Positions 1,583-15,202 of a stretch of 64,000 bases of DNA are shown here, piece by piece. The stretch's first letter is position 1, and each line of letters starts with the position of its first letter. The DNA comes from Pseudanabaena sp. FACHB-2040 (GTDB taxonomy: Bacteria; Cyanobacteriota; Cyanobacteriia; Phormidesmidales; Phormidesmidaceae), in NCBI RefSeq assembly GCF_014696715.1, contig NZ_JACJQO010000006.1:62001-126000 (forward strand). The letters are read 5' to 3'. Under the pieces are notes generated by a model that was not told the origin of the DNA, did not search any database, and was given only the letters and a program-made list of their open reading frames with translations. The position numbers and the translations under genes are program-made.

Positions 1583-1924
1583 TTACTCCTGAGCAGCCTT
1601 TAGGGCTCTCAGTTCAGCTTCTAAAGTTTCCAGACGACTCTGGAGCTGCTGATTGGTTGCCAGCAGTTCCTGATTGCGGCTACTCAAGTAGGGATCGTTT
1701 TCCCACCAGTTGATGCCGATTTCACGGGCTTTGTCCACCGACGAGATCAGCAGACGAATGCGGATACTCAGCAGTTCGGTAGACCCAACCGAAATCGAGA
1801 TATCTCCGGCGATGACCACACCTTTGTCTAGCACCCGTTCTAAGACGTCTGCAAGGGACGAACCCTGGGTAGAGGTTGTGATAGCGCGGTTGGGTTGGGG
1901 GCGAGAGAGAGGAGTTGCAGTCAT
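1583..1924 (-). CDS. gvpJ: Gas vesicle protein GvpJ
   Basis: Minor gas vesicle shell-type protein of 113 residues. Residues about 23-80 carry the GvpA-family fold signature ([20 protein letters not shown], then [17 protein letters not shown]) and the [12 protein letters not shown] segment typical of cyanobacterial GvpJ. A C-terminal coiled coil follows from about residue 83. In characterised systems GvpJ is a GvpA paralogue needed for vesicle nucleation. The start ATG overlaps the gvpN stop as ATGA, so the two are translationally coupled. It is the last gas vesicle gene here; gvpK, gvpF/L, gvpG, gvpV and gvpW do not follow, although they do in Anabaena-type clusters. Confidence 0.93.
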
Positions 1925-3246
1925 GCCTGATGCTCTAGCTCAGAATAGGGGCGGTAGACCGAGGGTTGGCTGACCTGCTCATGCTTCATCAGCAGGCCCT
2001 GGTCCAGCATAGATTTCAAAGCATTGACCACTTGAAAGCGGTTCAACTGTAGGGACTCCTCAATGTCGGATAGCTTAGCTTCGCCCTGTTCCAGAATGAA
2101 GCTATGGATGCGAGCTTCATGAGGATTTTCCTCAGCTGGAATGGAGCCATCCTCAGCTTTGGTTGCCAGGGAGGTTTCTTGAGCCAAGGAGGTTTCTTGA
2201 GGTAGAGAGGCTTCTTGAGGAATGAGTTCAGTCTGCAGAATGGACTGCTCAACCCATTCGGTGGACGCTTGCTCTGATTTTGGTTGCTCCCCGTGCAGAC
2301 GGGCGGTACTAGGTTCGCTTTGCAGTTTTTCAGCTACCAGAATTTCCGTTTCCGCTTCCTGTGCTCCAACTAGAGAGTTGAAGACCTCCCAGAGGTGACG
2401 GGTGGCATCGGGCAGAGCTTCTTTAGATCGAGAAAGCAGCACGTCACTGCACACATCACGAAACTCTGGGTCTTCGGCCAGGGTGGGGATCTGGTGCTGC
2501 TGGCAAATCGTGGCGATCATAAGGCTGGGCCGCAGGCTAGAAACCATATCGGGGGCCATGTTAGCGTGGAAGTTTCGCACAACTCTAACCACAGTTAGGG
2601 CCGAGGCGGCCTCTAGTCCCACCTTTTGCACTAAAATTTGCTGCTGAGTTAGCTCGTCTGGTTCTGGCATATCAATGGTGATTAGCCGGTCTAGCAAAGC
2701 ATCCTGGGTACCGTGAACGCCGCAGTATTCTTCTGGGTTTGAGGTGAAAATTCCCCGGAAATGGGGGCTCACCCGAATATACTCAGAGCGATTGTTGTTG
2801 GGCGGCAGCACCAGCAACTTCTCTTCCAGGGCCGAGAGCAGGACGTTGTTAACCTCAGGACGAGAGCGGTTAAATTCGTCGTAGACCAGAGTAAACCCCT
2901 CGCGACAGGCCAGCGTCAGACGAGAATCAACCCAGTTCTGGCGCAGTTCGTCCTCGACTTTAACAACGCTGTGAATGTAGTTGTCTACGACTTTTTTGCG
3001 GGTATAGCCCGTCTGATTACCAATCAAGTCTGAGGTCTTAAATTCATCGTCTCCAAAGAGAAGCATGATGGGTCGACCGAGCAGATCAGCTAGGTGTAGG
3101 CCCAGCGTGGTTTTTCCGGTGCCTGCCGGACCTTTCAGGTGAATAGAGTAACCCGACTGAAGGTAGCGCAAGGCGCGGCGGGCAATTCGCTCGGTTGTGG
3201 GCGTGCTAACAAAGTGGCGGGGGCGGGCTTGGAGCACAGTGTTCAC
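1921..3246 (-). CDS. gvpN: Gas vesicle AAA+ ATPase GvpN with C-terminal winged-helix-like extension
   Basis: MoxR-type AAA+ ATPase of gas vesicle assembly, 441 residues. The core (about 1-300) has Walker [10 protein letters not shown] near residue 40, Walker B LVYDEFNR near 122 and a sensor segment FTSNPEEY near 170. After it comes an acidic linker (about 300-373) with imperfect repeats of QE(A/T)SL. The last domain (374-441) is a predicted winged helix: helix IHSFILEQ, then [21 protein letters not shown]. The same domain ends GvpC, encoded just upstream. Family GvpN proteins are often about 300-400 residues, so this is at the long end. The ATG overlaps the gvpC stop by four bases, and the gvpN stop overlaps gvpJ in the same way. 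Confidence 0.92.
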
Positions 3247-4298
3247 AGGACAGCTTCCTCTTGGACGTGATAAATCCGGTCTTCCTGAACAATTAGTTCT
3301 TTCTGAATCAGCGATCGCAATGCATCAACTGCCTGAAAGCGACTAATTCCCAGCTCTGATTCAATCTCGGTCAACCGCGCTCCATGACTTTTGTGGAGGT
3401 AGTTGTAGATCAACTCTTCAACGTGATCGCTTTTAGGCTCAGCGACTTCTGGTGCCGGTGCGGGCAAGGGGACAGCGACAGCCATCGGCGTAGGTAGGAT
3501 GGGTGGAACTGCCGGAACCACAGGCTGAGTCGTTAGGGCCGCAGTGGGGAGTGCTACCACCTCTCGGTGACGGTGAGCCTGGGCTTGAGCCTGAGGCTGT
3601 GATTGGACTACCGCAGGCTGGAGTAAGGGAGTACCTGTGACGCTTTGGCCCCAAACTTGAGCTGTTAGCTCAGCTCGAAAGTTGCGTAGGCCCTGACGAA
3701 AATCCGCTAGATCGTGGAATAAAGCTTCTACTTCTTCTGCCAAAGCCTGGCGCTGCTGCTGCCGTTGTTCTTGGCGTGGGGCTGCAGCAGCGTGACGGGC
3801 AATCGTGAGGGCGTTCAGGGCTGCCGCCACTTCTGTTTTCAGTTCAGTGACGTAAGCTTCTAGCTCAGGAAGGAGTTGCGATCGCAGCATTGCCTGCGCC
3901 TGCCGATGCCCTGCTCGTAGGCTCGCTGTTTCCTGGCGCAGGTTGGCTACTCGGCGCTGCAGACGTTGTAAATCTTGGGCAATCTCCAGGCGCAGGTCAC
4001 TCACAACGGCCTCGAGTTCCTGCTGATCGGCGGCCAATTTTTGTCTTAGGACCTGGGCCTGAGTTAATCGATGCTGCCGGGCCTGAGCCAACCAAAGAGC
4101 GGTCTCATCCTGCAAGTTTATATGCAGCTGGTTCAGGGCCTGGCGTAGCTGGGCAGCGTTAGCAAAGCGTTCCTGCTGCCAACCGTCGAGAGCAGCATAG
4201 ACCTGCTGCCGCCGTTGAGCAACGATTTCCTGGCGTAGTTGCCTTGCTGCCTGCCACTGATCATTAAATGCAGCCACAGGAATGCTCTCCTTGTGCAA
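3243..4298 (-). CDS. gvpC: Gas vesicle protein GvpC with C-terminal winged-helix-like domain
   Basis: Likely outer-surface strengthening protein of the gas vesicle, 351 residues. Residues 1 to about 215 are almost continuous helix, rich in Gln, Arg, Ala and Leu, with degenerate repeats about 30-36 residues apart (LRQEI, LRQAL, LRQKL, LRQET), comparable to the 33-residue repeats of cyanobacterial GvpC. A Pro/Ala/Val-rich linker follows (about 220-288), then a compact domain at 290-351 ([29 protein letters not shown]) that matches the C-terminus of GvpN. Known cyanobacterial GvpC proteins are usually under 200 residues, so the linker and last domain are additions. It follows gvpA by about 220 bases, the standard gene order. 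Confidence 0.82.
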
Positions 4299-4520
4299 AG
4301 AACGGGTAGCTAAAGAACGTAAAGATCAATCTCAGAAGTGATTGACTGAGCTAACCAGATCTCTCCCGCCTGTTTTAGAATAGGGACAGCCTTGAAGTAC
4401 AGGCAGGAGCCGGATCAGGTTAGACATCACCCTTAGAGATAGAGCGTTAGGAAGCTGTGGTCGAGGCAGGATTCCTAATGCCATAGTCTGTCAGGAAGTA
4501 ATTTAGATGATGCAGTCGGC

Positions 4521-4739
4521 CTAAACGGCAGGAACAGCAGCCTGAGCGGTCAGACCAACGGCTTCTGCGTACTTCAGGTAGGTTTCTACCGAAGCGATTA
4601 CGACTCGGGCTTCCACAGCTAGCAGTTCGATACCGACTAGGGAGACGCGGACCCAAGCATCAATTACGATGCCCTTGTCCAGAATGCGGTCAACTACTTC
4701 TGCCAAGCTGGAAGATGAGTTTACTTTTTCAACAGCCAT
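4521..4739 (-). CDS. gvpA: Gas vesicle structural protein GvpA
   Basis: Main rib protein of the gas vesicle wall, 72 residues and near the canonical 70-71. The sequence starts [15 protein letters not shown] and contains [20 protein letters not shown] and [17 protein letters not shown], almost identical to other cyanobacterial GvpA. An in-frame upstream start would add eight unrelated residues; the ATG at 4739 is chosen because the family starts MAVEK. Only one gvpA copy is present, whereas many cyanobacteria carry several in tandem. The 221-base gap to gvpC presumably allows gvpA to be expressed far above gvpC. Confidence 0.97.
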
Positions 4740-5174
4740 AGTCTTTAAACCCCAAAACGTCAAGAGTTAACTTATGTAGTCGGGAAAATTCCCGGTGAGA
4801 GTCTCCAATGCCGATAGATGTAAGACCTATCGAAATGGTTGGTGTGCAAAGGTTTTATGGATGCACACTTGGTAGTTTGCCCAGATTCGGTGAGCGATCG
4901 CAGCGGGAACTAAAAAAGTTACCTCTAGGTCTAGCAGCAGGTTTTCACCAAAACTGGGGATCCAGAGCAGAAAATACGAATGAGCTGTCTTGGGTACTCT
5001 CTGCCACTGTTTGACGTAGAAAAGCACCGTCAGAAGCGCTAATACGCAATTCCTTACTGAGCCAAACTTAAAGTTCCCGGTTGAGTCTTAGAGATTCACA
5101 TTCCGGTAGAGACTGCAATACTTGTTAAAAATCCCTTAAGGTAATTTATAGAAGCCCCCTCTCGCCCTGCTTTG
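4740..5174. promoter_or_regulatory. gvpA upstream region with two small palindromes
   Basis: Gap of 435 bases between the divergent gvpA and TPR genes; it must hold the gvp operon promoter. Two inverted repeats lie close to gvpA: CGGGAA-AA-TTCCCG at 4781-4794 (42-55 bases before the ATG) and CGATAG/CTATCG at 4812-4832 with a 9-base loop. They could be operators or 5' leader hairpins. I could not identify a convincing -10/-35 pair. Open frames in this gap have no family resemblance. Confidence 0.4.
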
Positions 5175-9433: not shown

Positions 9434-10854
<1,421 letters not shown>

Positions 10855-10904
10855 TCACTCTGTTTAATTTGATTCAGAGTATTTGACCACAAAATTGGGC
10901 ATCT

Positions 10905-11753
10905 ATGACATCACTGACATTAGTTAAACAGTTTGCCTGCTTTGGGGGTCTGGTGGCTTACTACAGCCATTCCTCTCGCGAATGCGGGTGCCCCATGCAG
11001 TTTGCCGTGTTTGTACCGCCGCAGGCTCAAGAGGGGCCGGTGCCAGTGCTCTACTACCTGTCAGGGCTGACCTGCACTGAGGACAACTTTACGGCTAAAG
11101 CCGGGGCTCAGCGGTATGCTGCTGAGCATGGGCTGATGTTGGTTGCCCCCGACACTAGCCCCCGAGGGCTAGGTATTCCGGGGGAGGAGGATGACTGGGA
11201 CTTTGGCACTGGGGCCGGATTTTATGTGGATGCAACCCAGAAACCCTGGAGCCAGCACTACCGGATGTACAGCTACGTAGTGCAGGAGTTGCCTGAGCTA
11301 ATTGCCGCAAACTTCCGAATTCAGCCCGATCGCCAGGGCATTTTCGGTCATTCCATGGGCGGTCATGGAGCCTTAGTGTGTGGCTTGCGGAACCCGGATG
11401 TCTTTAAGACGATCTCTGCCTTTGCCCCAATATGTGCGCCGATGCAGAGCCCTTGGGGGATAAAGGCATTTAGCCGTTATCTAGGGGCAGATCTGACGGC
11501 TTGGCGACAGTACGATGCCAGCGAACTGGTAAAGCACCACGCTGACTCGAACCGCCTGATTTTGATCGACCAGGGTGAGGCTGACTCATTTCTCGATAAC
11601 CAGCTGATGCCCCAGGTGCTTGAGCTGGCCTGCCAGGAGGCCAAGCAACCGCTGACTCTGCGGCTTCAAGAAGGCTACGATCACAGCTACTTTTTCATTT
11701 CTACCTTTATGGCTGACCATATCCGCCACCATGCGCTAGGGTTATGCCAGTAA
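10905..11753 (+). CDS. fghA: S-formylglutathione hydrolase
   Basis: Serine esterase that hydrolyses S-formylglutathione to formate and glutathione, the step after frmA. The 282-residue protein is the usual length for the esterase-D family. The nucleophile is in [10 protein letters not shown] near residue 151. [11 protein letters not shown] near residue 60 and DTSPRG near 86 are family signatures, and the likely Asp and His are in GEADSFL and GYDHSYFFI. Cytoplasmic. Transcribed with frmA; a short membrane protein gene follows after 37 bases. Confidence 0.96.
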
Positions 11754-13799: not shown

Positions 13800-14212
13800 G
13801 GAACACGTCCCGAAACGTTAACAAACACGTCCGCTAGATTGCCTAGACGTTAGCAAAATATTGATAGAACCGCACAGGCGACAAGGGATTGTTAAGTAAA
13901 TTATCAATTTCTCGTAGCACCTGCAAATAAAATTTGCTCAAAAGAGCATTTCTATTTTTCGCAGAGAGCGGATCTGCAGAAACTTAAATGGAAAATGGAA
14001 GAGTAGACTCTTCTTAATTATCCAGCCAGCAGAATCTCGGTTATCCATCCTTGGCTATTTGTACTTCAACTGCTGCAAAATGGCGAGTATTTTGTGACTG
14101 CTTTCGCGTTTTTTGGGTAGACGATGGTCTTTTCTGAGGCTCTAGCTCAGAATCAGGGTGAAATGATTCAATCAGGAATAGCGTTTGGGGCGATCGAACA
14201 TACAGGTGAGCT
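13800..14212. promoter_or_regulatory. Divergent intergenic region, AT-rich, with short palindromes
   Basis: 413 bases between two divergent genes. Visible structure: TGCTC-AAAA-GAGCA at 13935-13948 followed by a T-rich tract, the palindrome GAAGAGT-AG-ACTCTTC at 13998-14013, and TTCTGAG/CTCAGAA at 14132-14152 with a 7-base loop. I see no small gene or RNA with a known consensus. Confidence 0.35.
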
Positions 14213-15202
14213 GTGGTTAAGTTCAGTCAAAATCGAGTGATGCGATCTGCCTGGGTCAAGCTCCTAGGCCACACGATTCTGAAATGGCAGCGGGATGACT
14301 GTCTAGAAATGGGGGCGGCTTTGGCCTACTACTCACTGTTTTCCCTGTTTCCAATTATTTTGGTGATTTTGAGCGTAGTGGGGTTTGTGATTGGCCCCAA
14401 TACAATGGCGTATAACCAGATCGTGCGGTTTGCTCAGGAGGCGCTGCCATCCGATGCCTTTCGAGTCGTGCAGGACGCGCTGCTGCAGCTGCACACGGGT
14501 AGCACCAGCGCTAGCATCATTGGTTTTGGCATTTTGCTATTTACCGCTAGCGGCTTTTTTGGGGCGCTGAGCCGTGCCTTTGACAAGATCTGGCACGTCA
14601 AACCCCGGGCTGAGGACGGCGGCGGGGTCACTGCGATCGCGCTTAATTTTCTCTGGAAGCGGATTTTTGCCTTCCTAATGGTGATTGGCTCCGCTGGGCT
14701 GATTTTGGTTTCCCTGCTGTCCAACATCGCCATTGATGCCTTGATGCGGATTTTGGGGGAGTTTAGTGAACGGGTCGATCTGGTCACCATCAATCAGGTG
14801 AATCTGTTGCCTTGGTTTCAGGCGGGCATTTCCTTCCTGTCGCTGGCCCTAGTGGTTATGGTGCTGTTCAACGTGCTGCCTTCTACCCGCGTAGCCTGGG
14901 GAGATGTCTGGCTGGGAGGTCTGCTAACGGCCCTGCTATGGGTCTTGCTGCAGCAGCTCATCAGTAACAGCGTGATTAGCCTTGGCAGTCGCTTTCGCTC
15001 CTATGGCGTGGTCGGTGGGGTCATGGTGCTGATGCTGTGGATCTACCTTACCAGCCAGATTTTTTTCCTGGGCGGGGAGTTTACCTACGTCTATGCCCAC
15101 ATGTTTGGCAGCCGCAAACAGGGCAAGCTAGGGCCGCGTAAACCCCTAGAGACTGCCCCAAAAAACCTTCAGAAAAACCCGAAGGCAAAACCTGAGGCTT
15201 AG
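14213..15202 (+). CDS. YihY/BrkB-family inner membrane protein
   Basis: Polytopic membrane protein of 329 residues with about six hydrophobic helices. The family signature is clear: DDCLEMGAALAYYSLFSLFP near residue 30, TASGFFGALSRAFDKIWHV near 110, and LLQQLISN with GVVGGVMVLMLWIYLTSQIF near the C-terminus. Older annotations call the family ribonuclease BN, which is wrong for YihY proteins; their function is not established. The GTG at 14213 sits only two bases from a purine stretch AGGTGAG; the ATG at 14237 is a good alternative start. It converges on the hybrid kinase gene. Confidence 0.88.
   Translation: MVKFSQNRVMRSAWVKLLGHTILKWQRDDCLEMGAALAYYSLFSLFPIILVILSVVGFVIGPNTMAYNQIVRFAQEALPSDAFRVVQDALLQLHTGSTSASIIGFGILLFTASGFFGALSRAFDKIWHVKPRAEDGGGVTAIALNFLWKRIFAFLMVIGSAGLILVSLLSNIAIDALMRILGEFSERVDLVTINQVNLLPWFQAGISFLSLALVVMVLFNVLPSTRVAWGDVWLGGLLTALLWVLLQQLISNSVISLGSRFRSYGVVGGVMVLMLWIYLTSQIFFLGGEFTYVYAHMFGSRKQGKLGPRKPLETAPKNLQKNPKAKPEA

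Follow-up and report, generated by a model that had tools for sequence, protein, structure and literature searches.

A homologous winged-helix domain at the ends of GvpC and GvpN in cyanobacteria, a possible docking module of gas vesicles

Our data confirm that GvpC and GvpN, encoded side by side in the gas vesicle (gvp) cluster of Pseudanabaena sp. FACHB-2040, both end in one homologous domain of ~60 residues, and the predicted fold of this domain is a winged helix. Many GvpC and GvpN proteins carry it, and it is undescribed in the gas-vesicle papers that we searched. The two tails may be a winged-helix pair that goes back to one duplication and has been reused for protein docking, a proposal that we hold to be evenly balanced between right and wrong; if true, the pair suggests how the motor GvpN may reach the vesicle surface.

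Results

Organization of the gvp cluster

The window, that is, the whole stretch of 64,000 nucleotides that was analysed, contains a minus-strand cluster gvpA-gvpC-gvpN-gvpJ at positions 1583-4763 (Table 1). Stop and start codons overlap as GTGA between gvpC and gvpN and as ATGA between gvpN and gvpJ, and therefore the three genes look translationally coupled. The start of gvpC is probably GTG 4277 rather than the listed codon, since an AAGGAG (4287-4292, minus strand) precedes this GTG by 9 nt; GvpC would then have 344 residues instead of the 351 listed. In GvpC, the helical core runs to its end motif (VWG) and is followed by a Pro/Ala-rich linker and the tail. A Nostoc-type GvpC stops directly behind the equivalent end motif (FRQDLFVSIFG); the GvpC of Nostoc sphaeroides is annotated as such. 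In GvpN, the AAA+ core is followed by ~100 residues, including a Glu/Ser/Gln-rich linker, and by the ~60-residue tail.

Table 1. Features of the gvp cluster in the window
Feature	Position	Strand	Description and basis
gvpA	4521..4763	-	Main shell protein, first gene of the cluster; PF00741 61.2 bits, PRK09371 GvpA 136.3 bits
gvpC	3243..4298	-	TTG 4298 is the listed start; between gvpA and gvpN; phmmer kinship to other GvpC
GvpC helical core	3648..4298	-	Ends with the canonical GvpC end motif (VWG)
GvpC Pro/Ala-rich linker	3438..3647	-	Sequence
GvpC winged-helix tail domain (predicted)	about 3264..3437	-	PF01978 TrmB 23.9 bits (cut-off 25.6), hhalign, AlphaFold2, PDB folds
gvpN	1921..3246	-	NCBIfam equivalog TIGR02640, 376.7 bits (E 6e-113; curated cut-off 266.8 bits)
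GvpN AAA+ core	2428..3213	-	TIGR02640 residues 12-273; AAA_5
GvpN Glu/Ser/Gln-rich linker	2122..2379	-	Sequence
GvpN winged-helix tail domain (predicted)	about 1945..2121	-	PF01978 TrmB 31.2 bits (cut-off 25.6), AlphaFold2, PDB folds
gvpJ	1583..1924	-	PF00741 59.4 bits; GvpJ model 60 bits, below cut-off 125

The GvpC of the window matched none of the curated GvpC models, including PF01304 for the 33-residue repeats. Its identity follows from the position between gvpA and gvpN, the kinship with other GvpC proteins and the canonical end motif, and one GvpC of the same architecture (locus L146) does match PF01304 with 21.7 bits (cut-off 21). Further gas vesicle genes of the genome are on other contigs: a gvpF recognized by Pfam lies on contig 10 (L170 8183-9742), with apparent gvpK and gvpG frames next to it, and contig 17 has another gvpF/L (L171 8330-9097).

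Homology of the two tails

A BLASTP alignment of the GvpC tail with the GvpN tail gave 30% identity and 76% positives over 46 residues (E 1e-9, single comparison). Furthermore, a profile made from GvpN tails only, run against all open reading frames of the fetched gvp loci, retrieved the GvpC tail of the window at E 3.5e-24 along with other GvpC tails, and every match was a GvpC, a GvpN or a fragment of either. On this profile the GvpC tail scored 82.8 bits, whereas the best of 5000 shuffled versions of this tail reached 13.4 bits, so that the similarity is well above random. Comparison of 62 GvpC tails with 63 GvpN tails by hhalign yielded a probability of 99.9% (E 1e-33). A first-pass annotation had claimed a common domain at the ends of both proteins, and these comparisons bear it out; the pattern described there, a helix, a matching 20-residue stretch and then strands, is present in both tails, and the linker between core and tail is of low complexity in GvpC as well as in GvpN. 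The best Pfam family of both tails is the TrmB winged helix PF01978, with the GvpN tail of the window over and the GvpC tail just under its cut-off; at E 0.01 or better it is found in 51 of the 62 GvpC and 46 of the 63 GvpN tails.

The tails look like the products of a single ancient duplication within the gvp operon, a possibility that the annotation had raised. There was apparently a single split: a tail tree in which one branch sets all GvpC tails apart is compatible with the data (p-AU 0.77). The unconstrained tree requires six changes between GvpC and GvpN tails, but keeping the GvpC tails together gives a higher likelihood. Mean identity is 54% among GvpC tails, 36% among GvpN tails and 38% between the two; the GvpN tails change fast and the GvpC tails slowly. 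Over 75 genomes the GvpC tail, at 54% mean pairwise identity, has three invariant columns, and its exposed residues are 97-100% conserved. Gene conversion or strong co-variation between the tails was considered and dropped, with a within-genome identity of GvpC and GvpN tails of 0.389 compared to 0.380 after permutation (p 0.015).

Predicted fold

AlphaFold2, run on the alignment of each tail family, gave the same order of elements for both tails (H-H-H-strand-strand), three helices and a two-stranded wing, with a pLDDT of 86 for GvpC and 84 for GvpN. The folds in the PDB closest to both models are winged helices, namely those of Z-alpha, AF2008 (1sfx), AspA, MarR, ArsR and ROK regulators, with top Z scores of 11.4 and 11.6. 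Many structures are tied at this level, and therefore the fold of the models is clearly a winged helix, with the subfamilies not separable among the tied matches. The winged-helix-like character first read from the letters of the two tails thus reappears in both predicted models and in their PDB matches. In any case, a common fold by itself says nothing on function.

Occurrence across genomes

The genome of the window has exactly two copies of the domain, in gvpC and in gvpN; neither this genome nor the full set of open reading frames from the fetched gvp loci contained a further carrier. All matches below E 1e-8 that 146 genomes of the phylum yielded sit in a gvp locus, and four weak matches (E 3e-6 to 4e-5) fall in frames of 143-156 residues of one distant genus. 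A search of plasmids found no close relative of the GvpC tail encoded, and the tail is absent from the plasmid-borne GvpN in five cases from outside the cyanobacteria (Halobacterium, Natrinema, Octadecabacter, Spartinivicinus and Methylosinus). The gas vesicle cluster of Nostoc sphaeroides is located on a 35.8-kb plasmid (L177, NZ_CP031945.1).

The survey covered 127 distinct GvpN genes, almost all from cyanobacteria: 75 come with both copies, 9 with the GvpN copy only, 11 with the GvpC copy only and 25 with neither, and 7 cases are unclear. The presence of one copy is strongly associated with that of the other (Fisher p 1e-5, uncorrected for kinship). However, the idea that the domain always occurs in both proteins or in neither does not hold against the 9 and 11 single cases; it is a tendency, no rule. 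Three assignments are less firm. L162 was counted as GvpN only, its gvpC probably missing because the contig ends; Arthrospira L130 was counted as having both, although a frame change and a stop codon interrupt its GvpC tail; and L087 was counted as GvpC only, its GvpN being broken by a frame change with tail sequence remaining downstream. In L130 (7564-7878, Arthrospira sp. PCC 9108) the frame change and the stop of gvpC fall inside the recognition helix. Basal GvpN lineages have neither copy, and therefore both copies probably arose near the base of the main clade.

Two further arrangements were seen. In a Nostoc-type group (L039 525-1241, L160 14234-14950, L164 14495-15211 and L165 9912-10637) a short gvpC with the domain lies kilobases downstream of gvpN and not between gvpA and gvpN; in L039 it adjoins a gvpA. 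L073 has two near-identical tailless gvpN genes (10166-11152 and 14185-15138) that sit on a long branch beside a group with tails on both proteins.

Closer inspection of Planktothrix rubescens PCC 7821 revealed a gvpC (L148 7700-8020) without linker and winged helix, and its GvpN keeps the tail. The old C-terminal codons (YIPVKKS) are still readable in another frame, and it looks as if an internal, frame-shifting deletion removed linker and domain. The domain is kept in many benthic or mat-forming genera and lost in planktic Planktothrix and Arthrospira, a pattern that may reflect life style, although Nostoc sphaeroides is not easily reconciled with it. The recurrent losses, and the intact vesicles of planktic Planktothrix without a GvpC tail, would be in line with tails that have no binding partner and serve solubility or spacing, or are relics in decay. 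The conservation of the GvpC tail and of its exposed residues over 75 genomes argues against this, and we consider it very improbable.

The face of the recognition helix

As controls, 16 alignable MarR/ArsR domains from the genome of the window and from relatives were used. A helix-3 position that is Ser or Thr in 15 of the 16 controls is Val or Ile in all 75 GvpC tails and hydrophobic in 92% of the GvpN tails. A second helix-3 position, hydrophobic in none of the 16, is hydrophobic in 99% of the GvpC and 84% of the GvpN tails, and the next residue is Asp or Glu in 99% of the GvpC tails. Furthermore, a Glu of helix 2 and the Arg that opens helix 3 are nearly invariant in the tails. The polar recognition-helix positions of DNA-binding winged helices are not found here, and the outer side of this helix resembles a surface for binding proteins, although, with 16 alignable controls, it is possible that the hydrophobic positions mark a slightly turned helix instead.

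It is imaginable that the tails bind DNA or RNA, tethering the vesicle to the nucleoid or regulating the gvp transcript, as their relatives in Pfam and the PDB (TrmB, MarR, AspA, Z-alpha) are mostly DNA-binding winged helices, and as, besides the invariant Arg at the opening of the recognition helix, a Lys or Arg lies near its middle. However, two exposed positions of this helix are hydrophobic and a third is acidic, and therefore nucleic acid binding is less likely; overall we regard it as improbable. The tails of the window have net charges of -5 and -3, and the means of the two tail families (-0.2 and -0.6) lie below the mean of 18 domains of DNA-binding type from this genome (+1.1; p 0.15 and 0.02); this difference is small, and net charge was dropped as proof against DNA binding.

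Linked loss of the two copies

One clade of 23 GvpN, including that of Nostoc sphaeroides (L066), has no GvpC copy. Within it the GvpN copy was lost 6 times on 1.71 branch units (11% of the tree), compared to 5 losses on 13.44 units outside the clade where the GvpC copy is kept (p 6e-4); counting three cases in which the GvpC copy is also missing, there are 8 losses outside the clade (p 3e-3). The test uses a quick tree and rests mainly on this one clade, and an independent-pairs test on the tree had too few informative pairs and hence no power. The 7 surviving GvpN tails of the clade have kept the hydrophobic core and lost the face: the Glu is present in 0% compared to 84% of the other GvpN tails, the V/I position in 0% compared to 84% and the F/V position in 14% compared to 81%. 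Such decay would be expected if the face of GvpN binds the GvpC tail. In the 11 genomes in which the GvpN tail is lost, the GvpC tail keeps its face, and therefore it presumably has a further use, for which self-association is the simplest guess.

Both tails might instead bind one third partner, a Gvp protein of the GvpF/L/K type or some structure of the cell; coat and motor would then share a platform without touching. The loss of such a partner would equally produce linked losses, either copy can persist without the other, and the C-terminus of haloarchaeal GvpC also binds GvpF, H, I and L. However, direct docking is the simpler explanation for the decay of GvpN tails where GvpC has lost its own, and we find a third partner rather unlikely, ranking it next after direct docking.

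Discussion

Homology, predicted fold, restriction to GvpC and GvpN and distribution make up the established part of our explanation. Of the mechanisms considered, docking of GvpN to GvpC has the best support, with about as much chance of being right as wrong, ahead of a third partner and of nucleic acid, which is unlikely. In our model, the GvpC copy, attached by a flexible linker and not part of the shell-binding helices, would bind other GvpC copies and tie neighbouring GvpC rods together, and it would also receive the GvpN copy. Docking of GvpN may recruit its AAA+ ring to a surface coated with GvpC, or it may stop GvpC from joining too early. As the common face we propose the outward side of the recognition helix (E, R, F/V, Q, V, D), which would not contact DNA. 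The weak residue co-variation between the tails speaks against this model. Docking cannot be essential, since 11 genomes have the tail on GvpC only and planktic Planktothrix has intact vesicles with a tailless GvpC.

In cryo-electron tomography of Anabaena vesicles, whose GvpC consists of five repeats and short termini, the junctions between neighbouring GvpC molecules were not resolved (PMC10185304). The tail is a small, concrete candidate for contacts of GvpC with GvpC and of GvpN with the vesicle in many other cyanobacteria, and possibly a recruiting tag for engineered gas vesicles.

Part of the similarity has been described before. According to the accessible text of Pancrace et al. (2017, PMC5259702), benthic Planktothrix has a 40-kDa GvpC (GvpC40) and planktic strains have shorter ones, and gas-vesicle clusters did not differ in abundance or size when one benthic and one planktic strain were compared. 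The same text reports that a stretch of 28 residues in the C-terminus of the benthic GvpC is 64% identical to GvpN; GvpC40 and the GvpC of Geitlerinema PCC 7407 share with our proteins the same C-terminal region and this similarity to GvpN, and the shorter planktic GvpC implies absence of the tail. In contrast to our analysis, the accessible text names no domain type, fold or function and gives no wider survey, and a figure legend speaks of an N-terminal domain homologous to GvpN. The first-pass annotation had held that standard descriptions of GvpC and GvpN lack the domain, which is nearly right: the 28-residue similarity was already reported, and in the accessible text domain and fold were left unnamed (PMC5259702). 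Our literature search returned, in the text accessible to it, no paper that names a winged helix, helix-turn-helix or TrmB in GvpC or GvpN, and the two matches that combine GvpN with a helix-turn-helix deal, by their titles and abstracts, with regulators. Within this literature, the earlier description is a short similarity in one genus.

Among known winged helices, the TrmB type (PF01978; AF2008, 1sfx) is the best Pfam model for both tails and a close fold match; unlike TrmB, the tails have no regulator or sugar-binding part, and they differ in the exposed residues of the recognition helix. Z-alpha domains (5j6x, 4kmf, 1qgp) reach the highest Z scores, with an rmsd of 1.4-1.8 over 61-65 residues, but identity is 13-24% and many MarR and ROK folds lie within 1 Z. 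Where Z-alpha has the Asn, Tyr and Trp that contact Z-DNA, the tails have Val, Arg and Tyr in a manual alignment.

A parallel to the proposed docking comes from Halobacterium, where split-GFP and pulldowns show that the globular domain at the C-terminus of GvpC (residues 329-382) is bound by both GvpN and GvpO (PMC9372576). This domain self-associates, GvpN-bound GvpC appears as a monomer, and the authors suggest competition between GvpC self-contact and GvpN contact (PMC9372576). In our comparison the end of Halobacterium GvpC (L172 2167-3315) passes the Pfam cut-off for Ros/MucR, a DNA-binding zinc-finger family (PF05443). In haloarchaea, GvpN needs no tail of this kind to bind GvpC, which is a counterpoint to docking by the cyanobacterial pair. 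It is tentatively conceivable, at somewhat less than an even chance, that a matched winged-helix pair docks the AAA+ motor GvpN on GvpC in cyanobacteria and was lost in some planktic forms, and that haloarchaea arrived independently at the same arrangement with a Ros/MucR zinc finger on GvpC. The two systems differ in that the GvpC domain of Halobacterium (PMC9372576) is a zinc finger and not a winged helix and its GvpN is tailless; they resemble each other in a small domain of DNA-binding type that follows a linker at the end of GvpC, in Halobacterium binding GvpN and itself, and the presence of two unrelated folds of this type at the same place in GvpC would fit a docking role.
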